Positions 4,630-36,191 of a stretch of 36,191 nt of DNA are shown piece by piece. Source of the DNA: a virus. The stretch covers positions 1 through 36,191 of the IMG/VR virus record IMGVR_UViG_3300044511_000068; one strand, given 5' to 3'. The position numbers and the translations under genes are program-made. Each line of letters starts with the position of its first letter. Positions within the stretch are counted from its first letter, which is position 1. Under the pieces are notes generated by a model. The model was given only the letters and a program-made list of their open reading frames with translations. It was not told where the DNA came from and searched no databases.

Positions 4630-6061
4630 TATGCCCCCCACTTATTTTTAAGTCTAATTCTTTTATTGCTTCTATAAGTAAAGCCACTACTTTATCATAC
4701 TTCACAGCTTTATATCCATCGTCTCTAGTAACTACTAGTTCAGGAAGTACGCTCTCTAGTTCTTGAGCTATAAGCCCAATATCTTTTTTTCGTAGAAAGT
4801 ACTCATCTTCTCCCCCATGCTTTGCTACATACTCATCTGTCCAATCAAAAGTATTACCGCTTAACTTACGAACTTTCTCCAAGGCATTAGGTATAGGCTG
4901 GATATTTGTCTTTAATCTCGAGTCGGAGCTATAATAAGCTGTAATATCTCCTCCCGCCCTTAAATCTCCGGCAACTCCTGAAGCTGCGGCTCCTACGCCT
5001 AAACTATTTACTTGATAATTATTATTAGTATTTAAAGACTCTGCACTAGTCGCGTTAGTCGCGTTAGTCGCGTTAGTCGCGTTAGTCGCGTTAGTCGCGT
5101 TAGTCGCGTTAGTCGCGTTAGTCGCGTTACCTACAGTTATATTAGCCCAGTTTGCTATATTTACTAAAGCCCTATTACTATCTATAACGGTGGTACCGTT
5201 AATTTTATACTCGACCAGGGCGTTAACTTTAATAGTGCTAATAGTTCCTGTATAAGGGTTGAAGTATAGTTGATTAGCCTCTGCCCCCGACCCTGTCGCA
5301 AGTCGCATAGTTGCCCCTGCACTATTATGCTCCGCAAATACTATATTAAACGAGGCATTCGTAGATGTAGAGGTGGTAGGAACAAAAGTAGCAACCCCAG
5401 CAGTAGTTGCTGTACTGGCGGAGGTAGCATTACCAGTTAAGTTGCCACTAAAAGTAGCTGCAGTTAAAGTACCCGTACTTGGGGTATACTTTAAGGCAGT
5501 ATTACTGTACAAAGTCTCCGGGGTAGCAGTAGTATTATTAGAGTCAACAAAAGTTAGGTAATGTTCTGCAGCTGCAGTAGTTGCAGTAGTTTGTACCTTA
5601 GAAGAGCTGGTAGAGGTGTTAGCATTACCGTCTAAGCTGCCACTAAAAGTAGTTGTAGCTAAAGTACCCGTACTTGGGGTATACTTTAAGGCAGTATTAC
5701 TGTACAAAGTCTCCGAGGTAGCGGTAGAATTGTTAGAATCAACAAAAGTTAGGTAGTGTTCTGCAGCTGCAGTAGTTGCAGTAGTTTGTGTAGCTATAGC
5801 AGTACTAGCTGTCTTAGCTTTTATATCATACTCAGCCTCTAAGTCAGCCCAGGCAACCCCGTTATACTTCTCCCATTTTTTATTTGAGGCAGACCACCTG
5901 ATAAAATTAGTTTGAGGGGTTACCGCAGTACCTGCGGCCCCTCCTAGGCTAGAGATAACCCCGGGGTCTAGCCCATAAGCCAGGTCCTTGAACCTATTAT
6001 CTAGTTCTGTTAGTACGCTAGCATAGTTTGACGTTAATGTAGGGAGGCTCCAATTTGCCAT
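4616..6061 (-). CDS. Tail fibre with C-terminal S74 self-cleaving chaperone domain
   Basis: A 481-residue fibre protein. From residue 379 (SDSRLKTNIQP) the last 103 residues match the intramolecular chaperone/peptidase S74 domain: SDSRLK at the cleavage point, then DIGLIAQELESVLPELV and a YDKVVALLIEAIKEL helix. In this family the domain helps trimerise the fibre and then cuts itself off. N-terminal residues 1-75 include a segment (KKWEKYNGVAWADLEAEYDI) that may attach to the tail. Residues about 92-200 contain two copies of a 45-residue block (AEHYLTFVDSNN...LYSNTALKYTPSTGTL). Residues about 312-339 consist of nine NAT triplets. AGAGG lies nine bases before the ATG. The gene follows J directly, as side or central fibre genes often do. 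Confidence 0.9.
   Translation of the reverse strand: MANWSLPTLTSNYASVLTELDNRFKDLAYGLDPGVISSLGGAAGTAVTPQTNFIRWSASNKKWEKYNGVAWADLEAEYDIKAKTASTAIATQTTATTAAAEHYLTFVDSNNSTATSETLYSNTALKYTPSTGTLATTTFSGSLDGNANTSTSSSKVQTTATTAAAEHYLTFVDSNNTTATPETLYSNTALKYTPSTGTLTAATFSGNLTGNATSASTATTAGVATFVPTTSTSTNASFNIVFAEHNSAGATMRLATGSGAEANQLYFNPYTGTISTIKVNALVEYKINGTTVIDSNRALVNIANWANITVGNATNATNATNATNATNATNATNATNATSAESLNTNNNYQVNSLGVGAAASGVAGDLRAGGDITAYYSSDSRLKTNIQPIPNALEKVRKLSGNTFDWTDEYVAKHGGEDEYFLRKKDIGLIAQELESVLPELVVTRDDGYKAVKYDKVVALLIEAIKELDLKISGGHNERG
5054..5125 (-). repeat. 9-bp minisatellite coding for (NAT)n
   Basis: Eight perfect head-to-tail copies of GTTAGTCGC (plus-strand reading), with partial copies on both flanks. 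It encodes an uninterrupted run of nine Asn-Ala-Thr triplets in the fibre shaft. Copies are identical at third positions, which indicates recent slippage rather than old selection. The length is a multiple of three, so gains and losses of units keep the frame. Confidence 0.95.
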
Positions 6062-6063
6062 AG

Positions 6064-9000
6064 TTAAAATCCTCTTACTGTATAGCTACATGACGCGCTA
6101 ACTCTAGTGCCCGCAGCATTAAATAATAATACCCTGAAAAACCCTGGTTTAGCCGCATCTACATAATCGTATACTGCAGTTATAGCTTGCGTGCTATTGG
6201 CGGATAAAACTATAGCATCTATATCTATAAATTCAGGAGTACTGCTGATAGTTTTATCAGAAGTTACGAATACTAAAGAACCGTTTATATCTATAGTGGG
6301 GCTGCTGATATTGCGAGTGATACTTACAGTATCTTTAGCATATAGCTCGCTGCCGGCTACTCCAGTAAGTTTTATCCCCTTACTGACAGACACACTACCA
6401 CTAGTAGTAAGGTTTAACTCTGTGTTAACTGTAAAACTGCCACTAGTAGTGCTAGCAATCTTGTACACATTATCTTTAGCTCCTCCACTAGAAAAGTCTA
6501 AAATTACTAACTCATTTATAGCTAGGCTGTGGGGGCAGGTGACTGTAATGGTAGTACCTACCTGTGAGTACGTTCCTGTGTACATACTTAAGTCAATTAT
6601 ATCATCAACAGATAGATTATGGTTGTTATTCGGCATATTAATAACTATATTATTAGCAGTTTGTGAAAAGCTAGTCGCCGTTAAAGGCACCCTAGGAGTT
6701 AAAGTACCTGTAATAGTCTTCAACTTACTATCTAGTTTTACATTAACGCTTGCTAAGTCTATTAACCCCGAGAATTTAGGATTATATACGTGTACGTTAC
6801 CCGAGCTAAAGCCCTCTACAACAGAACTGACTACGGTAAATGTGTCAGTTGCGACTGTACTAATAGTATAGGAGTTGTCACTAGAGTTTTGAGCGTTACC
6901 GTCTATAAAATCTAGAAGAACTGTATCTCCTGCTACTAACCCGTGGTGGGGGCAAGATACTGTTATAATTGGGCTCTCTGAAAGAATATTATAAGTACCT
7001 AATTTGGCACTACTACTAGATAAAGTATATTTTACAAAACGAAAATTGCTAGAATAAGCGCTTGTACTATTTAGGAACTCGGTCCAAATAGTATCATCTA
7101 CAGTTCCGTGCAACGCTCCATTAATAAAATCTAAAACGACCACCTCCCCTGTACTAAGGTTGTGAGGAGTTAGAGTGGTGATTGTGACTACATTTCCGCC
7201 CCTAGTGTACTCTCCGGACAAGTTTTTGTTTAGAATACATAAAGTGCCTGCCGCAGTGCCGGAGGTACTGGTAAGTAAAGTAAACGTATTACCACCCGTA
7301 ACCGTGATAGTATATTCTTTCCCTAAGGCTGTGTATAAATCACAGTTATACGCAGGATTCCCACTAACTATCGTTTTTGTGGGGGTAATAGTAACTTTAC
7401 TACTCGGGATTACCGTTTTATAATCTATAACTTCTTCATAAAACGCGGAAGTGGTGCCAGGTGACGCATAGATAAACTGTTGGTCGTCTAAGGCGTCTTG
7501 TATTGTACTCCAGTTATGGTTAATAAAATGATCTTGCCAAGACTCTGTAGGATTAACGGGCATAAGCCTAGTCCCGTCTGAATCAACCATTATATTGTAG
7601 GAGTCCACGAAGGTAGCCCCTACACTACTACCTAGTACAGAATCCGTATCTACACTAAATTTAGTGTCCCTATCTGCTCGTAATATATAGTCAGGGGGTT
7701 GATTTACTGTAGCACTTCTACTTGTATAACTGCTTAGATTTCGTGCCGTATCTATAGCTGCTAACTCATAGGTATAAACATTTGAAGCAGTCTCTATAAC
7801 AGTAGTAAAACCCCCCGACTTCTCTCCGAGAATACTAAAGACTTCTACACCTTCCTTTATATACTTCTTTCTTAAGTAGTAGCTAACTATAGGCAGCTGT
7901 GTGGTGCTTACTGCATTCTCATTCCAGTATAGTAATACGTTATTATCAATAACAGAAACCTCTCGGATAGTCGGAGCACTAGGTAACTCAATGGTCAAGG
8001 TAGAGTTTTTCTTTCCTGAGCAGTTACCTAGCACATCGTATGCTCTAACCCAGAAACTCCTTGTACCTCCCCAATCTACGTCTTTTAGTATAAAAGTAGT
8101 ATAAGCTTTACCAATAGAGATAGCGTTATCACCCTCATAGTAACCAACCTCGTAATAGTCTATCGGAATAGTATTAGTTAGCGCACTCCAAGAAGCTTTA
8201 TATTGTGCCCCTTCTATTATTAAGTTAAACCCTTCTACCAAGCCGGGGGGAGCTAAAGTTATCACTCCAGTTTTTAGTACCGAACTGCTAGTGTAGTTAG
8301 GGGTATTAGTATCTACTTTTTGTATTTCTACGCTTAAGTCCCCTAAAGTATTTGGGGGCAGAGTTACTATTACGCTGTTATTTAAAGTCCCGGGGCTAGC
8401 AGGTACTTCATATGTAATATTATTAAACTTTACAATATAACCGCTAGCGCCTAAAGTATTTGGTGCTTTATTATCCGTCCAAGTTATTGTCGCGGTACTA
8501 CCGGTTATTCTACCTGTAATAGTAGAAGCTACAGGAGGCTGTGGCACCTCTACGAGTAAAGCAGCACTAGTCTCCTCACCTACAGCATCAGTATACTCAA
8601 GCCTGGAGCTTACAGCTCTAACAAAGAAAGCTCGAGAGCCTAGCCAATTTACCGAGCCTGAATAGTTTGTATTAGGTGTAGTAGTGATTAAGTTATTTGT
8701 GGCTAAACTTGTGTGATATATCTCATAGTGATCTATAGGGTACCCGTTGCTAATGACGGGAGGTACCCAAGCTAGCTCGAAGGTACTATCTACTAATGCA
8801 GCTGTTAAGGCAGAAGGAGCTTGCGGTGTAGAAATAGCAACACTAAGGTTTGCAGCTGTACGACTACAGATATCACTAGTGTCTACCGCTTTAATAAATA
8901 CGTTATAATTTTTTAAGCTATCCGTATATGTAAGTTTGTTGCCTACAGTAATAAACTTATCGGCGGTATCAGTTATATCATCAAAACTGCTTGCCGTGCC

Positions 9001-11718
9001 TATCCGTACCTCGTAGTGTTTAAAATCTAGGTCGGTACAAGCATCCCACGTAAGTGTGGTACCTTCTCCAGACAGTGAGTAGGTTACTCCAGTAATATTG
9101 GCAGGAGCTACGGTTTTTCCGCGAATTAAGTAAGGAGGTAAGTTAGTAGGTGGGTATACTAATGTAGGCCCTTTTTTGCCTAAACTATTAAATGGAGTTA
9201 CGATAATACGAAATCCTGTGTTATCTTGTACTCCCAATATCTCGTGAGATAACTCCCTTGTATTAGTTGCATACGTGTTGGAGCTCGTAAGCGTATATGA
9301 AGTAGGGCTAGTAAAACTATAGTATTGCGTTGTTATAGAATATCCAGTAGTATTTAAATTGGAAGGTAGAGAGAAATTAAGTTTTGTTTTTATGGACTTC
9401 CCTGTAGCCTCTATATATATGTCATCTCTTATAACTATATTCTTACTGTAGATATACCCACTACCCTGCAGAATAGTAGTGATGTTACCGGGGTTAGTTA
9501 TAATACTGTCTCCAGATATACTAGCTACTGTATAATATGCTATTTGATTATACAGCATATCGTTAGAATCCGCTAATACCCCTGTAACTCCTATTATATC
9601 TCCCGGGCGGAATAAACTAGCATAAGAAGAGGCAATGGTTAGCACAGTACCGTTTTGGCTGAACTCCATACCGTACCCTGAGCTAGGTATGGCATTAATA
9701 GGGTTAGGTACTAAGTTGCTTACTGTATAGTTATTAGCAGGTAGGGTGACATTCTCCTCTATATAAGCATATTTATCTTTATCATAAGCTATAGCATTTA
9801 TTTCAAAAACGCCTACTGTATCTGTATCTTTTATGCTAATAACCTTATACTCTTCTGGAGTTAAATCTGCACGGTTTAGTACCCATATAGATCCGGCTGC
9901 TATGCCCTCGTCTAAAGACTCCCCTAGCGTTAAAATGTTTGTAGTGCCAGGGGGTGCTATAACCGAGTAAGATTTTACGCTTAGCCTACTAGTATCGTGT
10001 TCTACTACGGTAGGGTGATTAGTACTTGTAGAGTTTGCGGAGGTAGATAAATTATTGCAGCTAATTTTATAAGTTTTTCCTGCCTCTATAATAACATCTC
10101 TATCTAAAGTTATAGTATTTGCGGTACGGCTTAGTACCCTGCCCGCCAACTTAAACTGTTTTCCACCTGCTCTTATGTTATCTAGCACCCTTATTACCAT
10201 ACCAGGGCGTAAATAGGCCGAGTCTAACGCTGCTTTGAAAGATACTGCATTACTCTCATATGTGTCAGTATACAATAGCCATTTACCTAGTCTGTGGGCT
10301 TGCCCTCTACTGGTACAGCCCATTGCTACAGTCTCTATAGGATTATACCCATACTTAGTTATGGCTGTATCATCTAAAGTAACATACTCTATACGCTGCT
10401 TGTAGTCAAGCATAGGGTCGTTCCAAGTTATTAAAGCAGCGTTATGCTTCACTTTCCTAGACCCTCCTGCATATGTGAACTTTCCGTTCAACACGTTAGC
10501 ATTTGTAAATTGCATAATCGGGTCTTGTACGACGGCGTCTTGTATACAACTAATCAACCCAGTAGACCAAAAAACCATCCCACGGAACGCACTTGCTAAG
10601 TTTTGTAGAACCTGTACTGCATCCTCTTTAGTCTGGATATAAGCATTGAGACTAAATCGTCTCTCTAACTGTCCAGGGTTATAAGGGTCTGGCACTAATT
10701 CATCACACTTTTGCGCTATCTCATATAAGCTAGCAAGGTCTATTTGGTTGGCATCTATGTAACTACCTAAGCCGTACCTCTCGTTAGTTAATAAATCATA
10801 GAAACACCATGCAGGGTTATCAGTCCAGGCTACTTTTGTAACTGTACCATCCCACAAACCTGTGTAAGTACGAGATATAGGATCATAGTTGTGAGGTATT
10901 TTAACTTGCAGTAGCTTCATTAAATACCCTCTAGTAGGGATACTATTAAAGTACTCAGAATTAATTTTTAATCCTACTATCGCACTATTGGGGTAGAATA
11001 GCTTGATTGTAGTTATGCAAGTAAGGCTATCAAAATATACTGTATCGGTCTTTTTAGTTCCGGTTTCCTGAGGAGTAACCCTCCAAGCTTTTACTACATA
11101 ATTGTTGGAGTAGTTCGCTGCAGGTAAGTCATGTACAAAACTCCAAGTAAATTTACTAGAAGTTTTTCCTTCAATAGTTTTTGTGCCACTATCTAAAACT
11201 ACCGAGCCGTCCCCTTTTAAGATTTGATACGCGTATGAGCTTGAATAACCTACTAGGTCTCCATTACTTTTATACTCATATAACGAAGGTATACTAAAAG
11301 TTACGCGTATTCTATTAGTGGTACCTCCTTGTACAACAGCTGTTTTGTATAAAGGAGTGCCGTCAGCATTTTTTTCTAGTTTTTCGCCTACAGATAACTC
11401 AGCTTCTACAGTGGGAAAGTTGCCAATGTTAGTAGAATCTCCTACTGGATTACTTTTTAACTCATTGAGAGTAGAGCCCCTTCTATACTCGAAATCTTTC
11501 AAGGTATAGTTAGTAGTGCCGTCAGGGTTCATTAGAGGTACCCCGTCCAAGTATATAGACTTTTGAGGGTTATCATTACCATTAGCAAAGCCTTCAATAG
11601 GTCCCTCACATAAAAGGTCAAGCACTTTAGCATAGCTTCTAGACTTAAGGTTATCCGCCTCTTCTATCGGAGTGTGCCCGCCACCACCTTTACCACCACC
11701 GCTGCCGTGTATTAACAT
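6064..11718 (-). CDS. J: Tail tip / host specificity protein (lambda J-like)
   Basis: An 1,884-residue central tail-tip protein, much longer than lambda J (1,132 residues). The N-terminus is diagnostic: glycine-rich HGSGGGKGGGG, then NLKSRSYAKVLDLLCEGPIE and SIYLDGVPLMNPDG. Further J-type blocks follow, such as YGLGSYIDANQIDLASLYEI, AFRGMVFWSTGLISCIQD and LDYKQRIEYVTLDD. Residues about 865-1350 hold several fibronectin type III-like domains (HYEVRIG, DHYEIYHTS, DYYEVGYYEG). The region from about 1500 to 1760 contains repeats of the form CPH(H)GLVAGDTVLLDF, at about 1511, 1586, 1693 and 1724. The protein should close the tail tube and contact the host receptor; the C-terminal extension probably sets specificity. 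It follows I closely and precedes the fibres. Confidence 0.95.
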   Translation of the reverse strand: MLIHGSGGGKGGGGHTPIEEADNLKSRSYAKVLDLLCEGPIEGFANGNDNPQKSIYLDGVPLMNPDGTTNYTLKDFEYRRGSTLNELKSNPVGDSTNIGNFPTVEAELSVGEKLEKNADGTPLYKTAVVQGGTTNRIRVTFSIPSLYEYKSNGDLVGYSSSYAYQILKGDGSVVLDSGTKTIEGKTSSKFTWSFVHDLPAANYSNNYVVKAWRVTPQETGTKKTDTVYFDSLTCITTIKLFYPNSAIVGLKINSEYFNSIPTRGYLMKLLQVKIPHNYDPISRTYTGLWDGTVTKVAWTDNPAWCFYDLLTNERYGLGSYIDANQIDLASLYEIAQKCDELVPDPYNPGQLERRFSLNAYIQTKEDAVQVLQNLASAFRGMVFWSTGLISCIQDAVVQDPIMQFTNANVLNGKFTYAGGSRKVKHNAALITWNDPMLDYKQRIEYVTLDDTAITKYGYNPIETVAMGCTSRGQAHRLGKWLLYTDTYESNAVSFKAALDSAYLRPGMVIRVLDNIRAGGKQFKLAGRVLSRTANTITLDRDVIIEAGKTYKISCNNLSTSANSTSTNHPTVVEHDTSRLSVKSYSVIAPPGTTNILTLGESLDEGIAAGSIWVLNRADLTPEEYKVISIKDTDTVGVFEINAIAYDKDKYAYIEENVTLPANNYTVSNLVPNPINAIPSSGYGMEFSQNGTVLTIASSYASLFRPGDIIGVTGVLADSNDMLYNQIAYYTVASISGDSIITNPGNITTILQGSGYIYSKNIVIRDDIYIEATGKSIKTKLNFSLPSNLNTTGYSITTQYYSFTSPTSYTLTSSNTYATNTRELSHEILGVQDNTGFRIIVTPFNSLGKKGPTLVYPPTNLPPYLIRGKTVAPANITGVTYSLSGEGTTLTWDACTDLDFKHYEVRIGTASSFDDITDTADKFITVGNKLTYTDSLKNYNVFIKAVDTSDICSRTAANLSVAISTPQAPSALTAALVDSTFELAWVPPVISNGYPIDHYEIYHTSLATNNLITTTPNTNYSGSVNWLGSRAFFVRAVSSRLEYTDAVGEETSAALLVEVPQPPVASTITGRITGSTATITWTDNKAPNTLGASGYIVKFNNITYEVPASPGTLNNSVIVTLPPNTLGDLSVEIQKVDTNTPNYTSSSVLKTGVITLAPPGLVEGFNLIIEGAQYKASWSALTNTIPIDYYEVGYYEGDNAISIGKAYTTFILKDVDWGGTRSFWVRAYDVLGNCSGKKNSTLTIELPSAPTIREVSVIDNNVLLYWNENAVSTTQLPIVSYYLRKKYIKEGVEVFSILGEKSGGFTTVIETASNVYTYELAAIDTARNLSSYTSRSATVNQPPDYILRADRDTKFSVDTDSVLGSSVGATFVDSYNIMVDSDGTRLMPVNPTESWQDHFINHNWSTIQDALDDQQFIYASPGTTSAFYEEVIDYKTVIPSSKVTITPTKTIVSGNPAYNCDLYTALGKEYTITVTGGNTFTLLTSTSGTAAGTLCILNKNLSGEYTRGGNVVTITTLTPHNLSTGEVVVLDFINGALHGTVDDTIWTEFLNSTSAYSSNFRFVKYTLSSSSAKLGTYNILSESPIITVSCPHHGLVAGDTVLLDFIDGNAQNSSDNSYTISTVATDTFTVVSSVVEGFSSGNVHVYNPKFSGLIDLASVNVKLDSKLKTITGTLTPRVPLTATSFSQTANNIVINMPNNNHNLSVDDIIDLSMYTGTYSQVGTTITVTCPHSLAINELVILDFSSGGAKDNVYKIASTTSGSFTVNTELNLTTSGSVSVSKGIKLTGVAGSELYAKDTVSITRNISSPTIDINGSLVFVTSDKTISSTPEFIDIDAIVLSANSTQAITAVYDYVDAAKPGFFRVLLFNAAGTRVSASCSYTVRGF

Positions 11719-33014: not shown

Positions 33015-33043
33015 ATTATAACATACTAGGTAGAAAAATGCAA
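33015..33043 (-). promoter_or_regulatory. Sigma70-like extended -10 promoter for the late block
   Basis: On the minus strand TTGCAT, a 17-base spacer and TATAAT, with TG one base before the -10 box and a run of A/T upstream of the -35. The leader to the Kelch-like gene is about 32 bases and holds its G-rich ribosome site. The first part of the spacer (TTTTCTACCTAG) resembles that of the rightward promoter at 34466 (TTTTCCTAG). Confidence 0.82.
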
Positions 33044-33083: not shown

Positions 33084-33171
33084 TAGCAGTTTATGCAATC
33101 ACCCCCTCGCTGACTTAAAGTTACACGTAAAACCAACTATCGTAGTAGCACTACGGTTACATAAACTGCTA
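33084..33171. repeat. Inverted repeat in the divergent region
   Basis: TAGCAGTTTATG at 33084-33095 is the exact inverse of CATAAACTGCTA at 33160-33171, 64 bases apart. The left arm is preceded by GACCCTAAAC, whose inverse (GTTTAGGGTC) occurs twice further right at about 33231 and 33286, so the left edge mirrors the array to its right. Confidence 0.7.
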
Positions 33172-33304
33172 TGGTTACATAAATCGCTGTTGGTTCGCTG
33201 CGGTTCGCTGCGGTTACATAAATCGCTGCGGTTTAGGGTCAGGTACGGTTACATAAATCGCTACGGTTCGCTACGGTTCGCTACGGTTTAGGGTCAGGTA
33301 CTAC
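33154..33304. repeat. Iteron-like array of GGTTACATAAATCGCT and 10-bp units
   Basis: The stretch holds three copies of GGTTACATAAATCGCT plus one variant (ATAAACTGCT), separated by 10-bp units GGTTCGCTAC or GGTTCGCTGC. Two blocks each end with CGGTTTAGGGTCAGGTAC. No open reading frame of note crosses it. Such arrays mark replication origins or multi-site regulator binding in other phages and plasmids; which applies here is not known. TAAAGTTACACGT flanks it on both sides (33115 and 33312). Confidence 0.8.
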
Positions 33305-33345
33305 AAAAATCCTAAAGTTACACGTGCGGGGATGCCCGCGCGTAA

Positions 33346-33396
33346 ATCGGACAAACTTGTCTGATTACCGCCCTATATCGGACAAGTTTGTCCGAT
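33346..33396. promoter_or_regulatory. Pair of operator-like palindromes TCGGACAA-N2-TTGTCCGA
   Basis: ATCGGACAAGTTTGTCCGAT at 33377-33396 has nine-bp perfect arms around a two-base centre. ATCGGACAAACTTGTCTGAT at 33346-33365 differs by one arm base. Their starts are 31 bp apart, close to three helical turns, so two bound dimers would face the same side. They lie about 100 bp before the rightward TATAAT at 33496 and 330 bp from the leftward promoter. A phage repressor or Cro-like protein is the natural candidate, but its gene is not in the window. Confidence 0.72.
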
Positions 33397-33403
33397 TTAC
33401 GTG

Positions 33404-33621: not shown

Positions 33622-33821
33622 TTAAATGGATAGGCACAATAGCTTCTGTTATTGGGGCTTTTTTGGTAGCTAATAAAATCCCTTTTATTGGTTACTTGTT
33701 TTTTACTATTGGGTCGGCTTGCTGGATGTATATGGGGATTAAATCGAAAGATTCTTCCCTCATTGTATTAAACGGCGTTTTTCTTTTTGCGAACATTTTA
33801 GGAATTATCAATCATGTTTAA
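33606..33821 (+). CDS. Small membrane protein with three hydrophobic segments
   Basis: A protein of 67-71 residues. Segments WIGTIASVIGAFLVAN, FIGYLFFTIGSACWMYMGIK and LIVLNGVFLFANILGII could each span the membrane. The layout resembles a single PQ-loop/SemiSWEET-like unit, but the PQ motif is not obvious, so this is only a likeness. The start is uncertain: ATG at 33606 has no ribosome site, while GTG at 33618 (giving MIKWIGTI) overlaps the stop of the preceding peptide and would be coupled. The 3' end overlaps the SprT-like gene by 8 bp. A host membrane or superinfection function is possible but unproven. Confidence 0.7.
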   Translation: MGYIVIKWIGTIASVIGAFLVANKIPFIGYLFFTIGSACWMYMGIKSKDSSLIVLNGVFLFANILGIINHV

Positions 33822-34128
33822 ACCTACCGAAAAAAGCATTTATAAACTAGCTTGCGAAGTAAATCACGAGATATTCAATGATTTAATAAGCATTGAAACC
33901 TTAACCTTTAGGGTAAAAAATTCCCATAAATGGGCAATGGGATTTTATTGTGATTTTGAAATAACTGTGCATAAAAACTGGCATAAGACAAGGAAAGATT
34001 ATAAGAAAACGCTTGCGCATGAATTAACCCATTATTATCAGGATATGTTTTGGCTTGACCTAGACCACGGAAAGCAAGGATTTTTCCGGTTTTTCCAAGC
34101 TAAGATATTTGACCTTTACGGCGAATAA
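33814..34128 (+). CDS. SprT-like zinc protein
   Basis: A 104-residue protein with HELTH at 69-73 (KKTLAHELTHYYQD), the zinc and glutamate signature of metallopeptidases, and DHGKQGF at 84-90, matching the third ligand (His85) in the HGxxF element of SprT-like domains. The core from residue 25 (SIETLTFRVKN ... AMGFYCDFEITVHKNW) gives the strands before the active helix. It is shorter than bacterial SprT (about 160), so only the catalytic core remains. Eukaryotic relatives cut DNA-protein cross-links; the role of phage forms is unknown. The gene overlaps the membrane protein and is followed by a terminator. Confidence 0.82.
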   Translation: MFKPTEKSIYKLACEVNHEIFNDLISIETLTFRVKNSHKWAMGFYCDFEITVHKNWHKTRKDYKKTLAHELTHYYQDMFWLDLDHGKQGFFRFFQAKIFDLYGE

Positions 34129-34135
34129 ACCTCGA

Positions 34136-34167
34136 CAAGGCCGTGACAATATCATGGCCTTGTTTTT
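34136..34167 (+). terminator. Rho-independent terminator after the SprT-like gene
   Basis: CAAGGCC at 34136-34142 pairs with GGCCTTG at 34156-34162, with inner TGA/TCA pairing and a CAATA loop, and is followed directly by TTTTT. It is seven bases after the gene stop. The element is part of a repeat that recurs at 36129-36191. Confidence 0.85.
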
Positions 34168-34278
34168 ACCGGTAAATCGGATATTCATATCCTTTTATCT
34201 TTTTATGGTAAATCGGATATTCATATCCTTTTATCTTTTTACGGTAAATCGGATATTCATATCCTTTTATCGGCGCCG

Positions 34279-34308
34279 ATTTTACCATAACAAGCTAGGG
34301 CTTGTCAA
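34279..34308 (-). promoter_or_regulatory. Possible leftward promoter, first copy
   Basis: On the minus strand a perfect TTGACA (34308-34303), an 18-base spacer and TAAAAT (34284-34279). The -10 overlaps the palindrome ATCGGCGCCGAT, which would allow repression. It points back over the SprT-like gene toward the divergent region. Confidence 0.45.
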
Positions 34309-34369
34309 TACCTTAGGCCTAAAATCTTTTTACGGTAAATCGGATATTCATATCCTTTTATCGGCGCCG

Positions 34370-34399
34370 ATTTTACCATAACAAGCTAGGGCTTGTCAA
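34370..34399 (-). promoter_or_regulatory. Possible leftward promoter, second copy
   Basis: The tandem 91-bp duplicate of the element at 34279-34308, with the same TTGACA, 18-base spacer, TAAAAT and overlapping palindrome. Confidence 0.45.
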
Positions 34400-34411
34400 T
34401 ACCTTAGGCCT

Positions 34412-34443
34412 AAAATCTTTTTATGCGGGTATAAAAAGATTTT
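34412..34443. other. AT-rich 13-bp hairpin upstream of the 34466 promoter
   Basis: AAAATCTTTTTAT and ATAAAAAGATTTT are perfect inverses around a GCGGGT loop. The stem ends the repeat array and lies 22 bases before the -35 box of the rightward promoter. It might insulate the promoter from upstream transcription or bind a regulator. Confidence 0.6.
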
Positions 34444-34465: not shown

Positions 34466-34493
34466 TTGCACTTTTCCTAGATGTCTGTATAAT
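34466..34493 (+). promoter_or_regulatory. Rightward sigma70-like promoter
   Basis: TTGCAC at 34466-34471, a 16-base spacer and TATAAT at 34488-34493, preceded by A-rich tracts. It should drive the putative DNA-binding protein, HAD and exonuclease genes, with a leader of about 66 bases. Its spacer start (TTTTCCTAG) resembles the leftward late promoter. Confidence 0.82.
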
Positions 34494-34565: not shown

Positions 34566-34910
34566 ATGGCTACCGAAAAACCCGTTAATTTTACCGCTGA
34601 AATGACCTTTGCTTTGGTTGAAGCATACAAAGCGAATCCTTCGCGTGAGACTGTGGAAGTCTTCGCAAAGCAATTCAGCAAGTCTGTGCGCTCGATCGTT
34701 GCGAAGTTGTCGCGAGAAGGTGTGTATATCCGCAAGGAATATACCACAAAAAAGGGGGATAAACCCGTAGCCAAAGAAACTTTGGCAGATACTATTGGCC
34801 GTGTTTTGCAATTGACCGAGAATGATACTAGTTCGCTTGCGAAAGCGAATAAGAAGGCTTTGCAAGCTATTTTTAATGCTCTAGCTAATTCTACGCCTAT
34901 TGAAGGTTAA
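34566..34910 (+). CDS. Putative small DNA-binding protein
   Basis: A 114-residue protein with GGAG eight bases before the ATG. Residues 10-60 read as helices with a turn (AEMTFALVEAYKANPSRETV, EVFAKQFSKSVRSIVAKLSR, EGVYIRKEY). Here the third helix (KSVRSIVAKLSREG) has the look of a recognition helix of a homeodomain-like helix-turn-helix. The C-terminal part (TLADTIGRVLQL ... ANKKALQAIFNALAN) is a second helical region that might dimerise. I recognise the general type from many aquatic phages, where it is annotated only as hypothetical. It is the first gene after a strong promoter and next to palindromic arrays, so a transcriptional regulator is a fair but unproven guess. Confidence 0.75.
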   Translation: MATEKPVNFTAEMTFALVEAYKANPSRETVEVFAKQFSKSVRSIVAKLSREGVYIRKEYTTKKGDKPVAKETLADTIGRVLQLTENDTSSLAKANKKALQAIFNALANSTPIEG

Positions 34911-35434: not shown

Positions 35435-36130
35435 ATGAAAAAACAGTTTTTTGCGATTATTGATACAGAGACAACGATTAACGATACCGTAGCAGATTGC
35501 GCTATTGTCATTTGCGATAAGCAAGGCATTATCCATAATAGAATGGCCGTATTGATTGCTGGGCATTACGGCCATTTTGAATTATTTCATGATAAGAATG
35601 CTTCCGATATATGGGGATATGCTGGATTGCTAAAGCGTAATGAAGCATATATTGATATGCTCAATAACGGCAAGCGAATGCTTGCCAGCGTAAACGCTGT
35701 TAATAAATGGATAACGCAAGCCATAGGTAAATATAACCCTAGTCTTACGGCGTATAATCTAGCATTTGATAAAAACAAATGCGCTAATACTGGAATAGAC
35801 TTATCGGGGTTTAATTCGGAGTTTTGCCTATGGCAAGCTGCTATAGGTAACCTTTGCAATTCAAAAGGCTATAGGCAATTCGTACTGGAAAATCACCTTT
35901 TCAACGCTCCTACGGAATTACACAATATGACATTTTCCACTAGCGCGGAAAGTGTAGCAGGATTTATTAACTCGCAATGGATTAGGGAACCACATACTGC
36001 GCTAGAGGATATTATTGATTTTGAATTGCCTATTCTGAAAGCTGTTGTCACAAAGCGTAAATGGCGCGACAAGATAAAGCCTTATAACTGGAAAGATTTT
36101 CAAGTAAAAGAGAATTATAAACCATTATAA
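35435..36130 (+). CDS. DEDDh 3'-5' exonuclease
   Basis: A 231-residue protein of the DnaQ-like family, from the ATG at 35435 with AAGGAC upstream; an in-frame ATG at 35393 lies inside the HAD gene without a ribosome site. Motif ExoI is Asp10-x-Glu12 (AIIDTETT), ExoII is Asp112 (YNLAFDKNKC) and ExoIII is His187 with Asp192 (PHTALEDI), the DEDDh form. The end (WKDFQVKENYKPL) is short and polar with no polymerase part. It should remove nucleotides from 3' ends, perhaps in replication or repair. It overlaps neither neighbour and is followed by the terminator-like repeats. Confidence 0.88.
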   Translation: MKKQFFAIIDTETTINDTVADCAIVICDKQGIIHNRMAVLIAGHYGHFELFHDKNASDIWGYAGLLKRNEAYIDMLNNGKRMLASVNAVNKWITQAIGKYNPSLTAYNLAFDKNKCANTGIDLSGFNSEFCLWQAAIGNLCNSKGYRQFVLENHLFNAPTELHNMTFSTSAESVAGFINSQWIREPHTALEDIIDFELPILKAVVTKRKWRDKIKPYNWKDFQVKENYKPL

Positions 36131-36191
36131 ACCTCGACAAGGCCTTGACAATATCACGGCGAATAAAACCTCGACAAGGCCTTGACAATAT
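36129..36191 (+). repeat. Two tandem terminator-like repeats reaching the right edge
   Basis: AACCTCGACAAGGCC starts at 36129-36130 and again 37 bp later; each is followed by TTGACAATAT, and CGGCGAATAAA lies between them. The same order (CGGCGAATAAA, CCTCGACAAGGCC, TGACAATATCA) occurs over the stop codon and terminator at 34119-34153. In these copies the second arm GGCCTTG is not reached before the edge, though CAAGGCCTTG is itself a palindrome. Confidence 0.82.

Follow-up and report, generated by a model that had tools for sequence, protein, structure and literature searches.

The locus and its features

The window, the whole stretch of 36,191 nucleotides analysed here, is a 36-kb linear virus record. 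Judging by its terminase genes and gene order, it is a fragment of an uncultivated T5-like phage (Demerecviridae-related): TerL is 46-47% identical to its T5-like homologues, TerS 33-45%, and the terminase proteins overall are 33-47% identical to their T5-like counterparts. A leftward structural block (terminase, portal, tail) lies beside a divergent rightward early-type block. The array under study sits between the terminator of a SprT-like gene and the promoter-like sequence of the next early gene, with the following features:

33015-33043, minus strand: promoter-like TTGCAT-N17-TATAAT of the leftward (late) block (from sequence)
33814-34128, plus strand: SprT/M76-like metallopeptidase-like gene (HELTH motif, sub-threshold Pfam matches)
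34136-34167, plus strand: rightward terminator CAAGGCC-N13-GGCCTTG-TTTTT, belonging to the SprT-like gene; P1 and P2 face it (from sequence)
34179-34192, minus strand: extra hairpin unit without promoter, 36-nt tandem copy (repeat and core search)
34215-34228, minus strand: extra hairpin unit without promoter, 36-nt tandem copy (repeat and core search)
34233-34323, no strand assigned: first 91-bp module copy, hairpin plus promoter (repeat comparison)
34251-34264, minus strand: hairpin core GGATATGAATATCC, predicted first transcribed bases of P1 (sequence, folding)
34273-34278, minus strand: P1 discriminator CGGCGC, conserved across the relatives' sites
34279-34308, minus strand: promoter P1, -35 TTGACA at 34308-34303, -10 TAAAAT at 34284-34279 (sequence scan)
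34324-34414, no strand assigned: second 91-bp module copy, identical to the first (repeat comparison)
34342-34355, minus strand: hairpin core GGATATGAATATCC, predicted first transcribed bases of P2 (sequence, folding)
34364-34369, minus strand: P2 discriminator CGGCGC, conserved across 234 sites
34370-34399, minus strand: promoter P2, -35 TTGACA at 34399-34394, N18 with extended -10 TATGG, -10 TAAAAT at 34375-34370 (sequence scan)
34466-34493, plus strand: promoter-like TTGCAC-N16-TATAAT, belonging to the next early gene and back to back with P2 (from sequence)
34566-34910, plus strand: small DNA-binding-protein-like gene, phrog_1725 ('DNA binding protein'; family match)

The original prediction of four palindromic units and a 91-bp tandem duplication was borne out. 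The two 91-bp copies are 100% identical, and a 39-nt unit occurs four times (starts at 34161, 34197, 34233 and 34324; 85-100% alike); TRF concurs on both. The array is thus built of two complete modules (hairpin unit plus promoter) and two hairpin units without a promoter, the units being 36-39 nt long. The core GGATATGAATATCC is present four times in the window, where none is expected. No match to the array-region DNA, or to the protein of the 114-aa gene, was found in the phage collection. A coding function of the minus strand (40-aa ORF, 34166-34288) was rejected, as its ATG at 34288 lies upstream of the predicted P1 start.

It had also been claimed that each duplicate carries, on the minus strand, TTGACA-N18-TAAAAT overlapping ATCGGCGCCGAT, and this proved exact. 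The promoter motif occurs exactly twice in the window, both times on the minus strand (34308-34279 and 34399-34370), against 0.01 expected from shuffles; ATCGGCGCCGAT also occurs exactly twice (34269-34280 and 34360-34371), against 0 expected, and overlaps the last two bases of each -10. Both promoters match the sigma70 -35 and -10 hexamers at 11 of 12 positions with a spacing inside the 16-18 bp range, and TATGG fits the extended -10 TRTGN, which is optional for sigma70. From this spacing, transcription is predicted to start near 34362/34361 for P2 and near 34271/34270 for P1, on the minus strand. A generic sigma70 scan of the array region gave no enrichment (14 found, 13.5 expected), so that the weight of the argument rests on the exactness of the motif and on its conservation in relatives. 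The two promoters do not belong to the T5 early class, which has an ATATT discriminator and lies on the same strand as the early gene; here the discriminator is CGGCGC and the strand is the opposite one. They are oriented leftward, antisense to the SprT-like gene at 33814-34128, as originally proposed, and the predicted RNA would enter the 3′ end of this gene. The proposal that an antisense or small RNA is made here remains the best reading of the sequence.

A promoter class conserved in related phages

L010, a relative found via its terminase gene, again has TTGACA-N18-TGGTAAAATCGGCGCC followed by the same hairpin, and a scan over all loci brought out a class. The class was then defined by the anchor TAWAAT(N)GGCGC only, over 1.9 Mb of related contigs. 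This gave 234 distinct sites, a count that includes relatives and not independent events, of which 228 had at least 5/6 of TTGACA; the -35 to -10 spacing was 17 in 137 sites and 18 in 87. Among contigs that had not been fetched by the TTGACA motif, 30 of 32 TAWAAT(N)GGCGC sites had a 6/6 TTGACA, with spacings of 17 (16 sites) and 18 (14 sites). The extended -10 TRTG, absent from every search pattern used, was recovered at positions -17 to -14 (T 155, R 194, T 159 and G 155 of 224). We conclude that there is strong sequence evidence for a class of real sigma70-type promoters.

The reading of the start-site palindrome as an operator did not hold. Only its CGGCGC half is kept across the 234 sites, and the base that follows GGCGC varies (C 99, G 88, A 31, T 6). 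Since the second half is not conserved, GGCGC is a discriminator rather than an operator.

The class belongs to T5-like phages: 110 of the 117 loci with sites encode relatives of the window's T5-like proteins, and phrog_1725 is the window family that most frequently adjoins CGGCGC promoters. A scan of viral contigs with TTGACA-N17/18-TAAAATCGGCGC returned at least 119 stretches. In bacterial and archaeal genomes totalling 257 Gb, the pattern was hit 18 times, close to the roughly 15 that we estimate for chance (about 15). A host promoter class was rejected, as the only one of these 18 hits with the class features, L238 (contig C44 of G024), carries a T5-like family gene. L238 has three class sites on one strand. 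It is a contig of a T5-like phage that was placed in a Flavobacteriaceae MAG, which is possibly a host hint, possibly a binning error. Eleven named T5-like genomes (T5 and ten others) had no TTGACA-N16-19-TAWAAT-GGCGC site, and nothing matching such an antisense phage promoter class was found in the literature searched. Rfam returned no family on the window and its relatives except tRNAs in L084, and none at the promoter sites. In L051, three promoter modules (at 7204, 7295 and 7386) are exactly 91 bp apart, the period of the window, with different sequences.

The last 61 bp of the window (36131-36191) match L084 (G001) exactly at 180-240. L084 contains two more copies of the promoter module (78 bp identical), and there, too, a copy comes after the same kind of terminator as in the window. 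The layout of gene, terminator and backward promoter therefore probably recurs after the gene ending at 36130. Because both assemblies break in the shared 61-bp repeat, L084 probably adjoins the window, either in the same genome or in that of a sibling.

Strand, placement and discriminators

In terminase-anchored contigs, all 30 distinct sites were on the late-gene strand and none on the early strand. Each record searched as a whole had all its sites on one strand, mostly clustered within a few kb, and a reversed-pattern control on these records found 0 sites. In the loci mapped in detail, the sites occupy gaps between small opposite-strand genes of the early region, upstream of the terminase. 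A gene was called on either side of 174 sites located outside ORFs; at 116 of these both neighbours were opposed to the motif, the ORF calls being heuristic. The next gene had a recognisable promoter of its own on the gene strand in 30 of 101 gaps (11 on the other strand, 4 in shuffles), and gene-strand terminators lay in front of the sites, on the side to which the motif points, in 26 of 107 gaps, against 3 in shuffled sequence.

The class is not always antisense: about 13 loci form a subgroup in which the promoter faces a co-directional ORF of 48-54 aa, and in the six of them that were read this ORF has its own early-type promoter. A small-gene reading of the co-directional neighbours extends only to one conserved 48-54-aa family and one 85-112-aa family. 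For the conserved 48-54-aa protein (L116, L129, L144, L190, L208, L209 and relatives), similarity to the phrog_1725 DNA-binding-like protein is confined to the C-terminal part of the latter. Its gene has its own early-type promoter and terminator, and the protein is possibly a truncated antagonist.

Within the same contigs, discriminators followed the strand: those of the early strand are A-rich (A-first in 40 of 47), those of the late strand T-rich (T-first in 65 of 99), and the class described here has CGGCGC. The discriminator is also the main difference between T5 early and late promoters; the mechanism by which T5-like phages change from one promoter class to another, all being read by one sigma70 polymerase, is described as unknown (PMC7472727). 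Because discriminators differ by class, and because a T5 RNAP-binding protein acts at the discriminator region (PMC7472727), the CGGCGC class would be expected to be active in a time window of its own.

A hairpin at the predicted start site

The hairpin core of the window, as GGATAYGAATATCC or GGATACAAATATCC, also follows class promoters in L010, L013, L148, L176 and L198. More generally, a perfect stem of at least 7 bp was found after the promoter in 122 of 232 sites, compared with 10 of 231 shuffled, mostly starting at about +1 to +8. Near-identical loci keep the hairpin and swap its sequence, for example CCAAATGAGAATATTTCTCATTTGG versus ATTTTTATGTGCCCATAAAAAT between flanks that are 94 and 97% identical. 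A compensated pair change was seen between L128 and L182, and one hairpin loop was inverted between near-identical loci; 22 of the 76 pairs compared include a member without a 7-bp stem. Retention of the hairpin despite exchanged or compensated sequence argues for a structure and not for a specific protein site, and the palindrome as a fixed operator was rejected on the ground that orthologous sites swap it. An intrinsic terminator was rejected as well: of 124 stems, only 15 run into a T-rich stretch when read along the motif strand, and 6 along the gene strand.

Taken by itself, the short hairpin of the window folds only weakly (-4.3 kcal/mol, z about -1.2). The predicted P1 RNA (147 nt, three hairpin units plus the terminator stem) folds at -41 kcal/mol against -21.6 for shuffles (z -6), and within it the SprT-like terminator forms a strong stem.

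Alternative explanations

The promoters could belong to small-RNA genes that make short trans-acting RNAs (35-100 nt) with a 5′ hairpin, their convergence with early genes being a matter of space only. Some sites are indeed directly followed by a motif-strand intrinsic terminator (L114, CCCCAGGGCATAAGCCCTGGGG-TTTTTAT; L010, site 2121), and some downstream stretches are conserved between relatives (L015/L018). Motif-strand terminators, however, occur in only 17 of 107 gaps (3 shuffled), so most sites have none in the gap; hairpin sequences differ even between orthologous sites, with no shared seed visible by eye, and no Rfam family was matched at the sites. We regard small-RNA genes as unlikely. 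Still less probable are promoters kept silent by a host or phage repressor such as Fur bound to the +1 palindrome. The palindromes are placed where a repressor would block the start, and a Fur-box-like palindrome, TGAGAATNATTCTCA, follows 24 of the 234 sites, but unrelated palindromes are substituted at orthologous sites, many have tetraloops instead of central dyads, and the window has no Fur-like site, though other sites of the class do have one.

Two further readings have very little in their favour. The transcripts could drive the late block by read-through, as had been suggested, since all sites point towards the terminase and late block. This is most improbable: the late block of the window has its own promoter-like TTGCAT-N17-TATAAT (33043-33015), and in the relatives mapped in detail the last site is usually separated by one or more opposite-strand early genes from the terminase genes, many of which carry TATAAT-T... 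promoters of their own. Equally slim are the odds of single-strand nick sites of the T5 type (NPu|GCGCN), all of which lie on one strand in T5. CGGCGCC, read as CG|GCGCC, fits this short, low-information consensus; the annotated T5 nicks lie on the late-gene strand with GCGC at the nick, and the one at 9748 is followed by a palindrome. Yet the five annotated T5 nicks (two being terminal-repeat copies) continue as GCGCAGGG or GCGCGGGC and have GTAA about 33 nt upstream and no promoter hexamers, a context that the window sites lack, and nicking leaves the 17/18 spacing and the extended -10 unexplained. Nick sites were rejected on this difference in context.

Two observations on these motifs were made in passing. 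Fur-box-like TGAGAATNATTCTCA, with one mismatch allowed, is strongly over-represented in T5-like loci (95 distinct palindromes in 58 loci, including L005, L007, L022, L142 and L186), and the T5 record itself (L112) contains TGATAATCATTATCA at 233 as well as TGAGAATCATTATCA at 9658 in the injection-stop region. The annotated nicks of T5 AY543070 (L112, L113, L106) have in common a GTAA some 33 nt ahead of |GCGC, with AGGG or GGGC after it, a motif longer than the annotated NPu|GCGCN.

Proposed role

Promoter grammar, orientation, location and hairpin are well supported by sequence comparison; activity, timing, extent of the RNA and effect on early genes are what we infer. We favour the view that the array represents the tandem amplification of a promoter module that is characteristic of an uncultivated lineage of T5-like phages. 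Each module is a sigma70-type promoter with a perfect -35, a 17/18-bp spacer with extended -10, TAAAAT or TATAAT and a CGGCGC discriminator, with a hairpin immediately after. It occupies the gap from one early gene's terminator to the promoter of the following gene, and points back at the former gene. Initiating at about 34362 and 34271, host RNAP would transcribe leftward across the hairpin units and on into the terminator and body of the SprT-like gene, so that an RNA with a hairpin 5′ end would meet early-gene transcription head-on. This may insulate early units through the head-on encounter, lower early-gene expression by antisense action, or do both. We give a probability of roughly 0.6 to this reading, in which a third sigma70-type class, separated from early and late promoters by its discriminator, starts hairpin-headed RNAs that converge on early-gene 3′ ends and insulate or shut off early units. 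That it constitutes, throughout a widespread T5-like lineage, a third temporal host-RNAP class, CGGCGC-marked and producing hairpin-headed antisense RNAs for genome-wide early shut-off or insulation, is a more tentative idea, to which we lean less than to its contrary.

Like the T5 early and late promoters, these would be host-RNAP sigma70 promoters of a T5-like genome, in classes that differ mainly in the discriminator (PMC7472727); unlike them, they have CGGCGC, an extended -10, a +1 hairpin and an antisense placement. The gene-strand early promoters here are often A/T-rich at the discriminator, similarly to the early ATATT of T5. Comparison can also be made with bacterial systems. Stable-RNA (stringent) promoters combine strong -35 and -10 elements with a GC-rich discriminator, e.g. 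TATAATGCGCC in rrn P1. The window class shares this combination but has a different discriminator sequence, a phage antisense context and a +1 hairpin. In convergent antisense promoters and bidirectional terminators, a promoter faces a gene end across a terminator, as in the window; here, a standard module takes this position again and again, behind many early genes and always on a single strand, throughout a phage lineage.

Three classes in one lineage, differing by discriminator and strand and with one antisense to early genes, would amount to a direct, testable switch code. The recurrent antisense module of these abundant environmental phages is invisible to gene-based annotation, and is predicted to offer a concrete lead on how they insulate or switch off early genes.

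Other repeats were noted in the window. The non-coding region 33120-33402 contains 10-bp repeats of the GGTTCGCTACGG type, 'TTTAGGGTCAGGTAC' repeats and a TAAATCGGACAAACTTGTC dyad, and the same repeat families are found in L084 at 500-1190. In or near the tail genes lie four 363-bp tandem repeats (95%; 336-1800) and nine exact 9-bp repeats (5047-5129).
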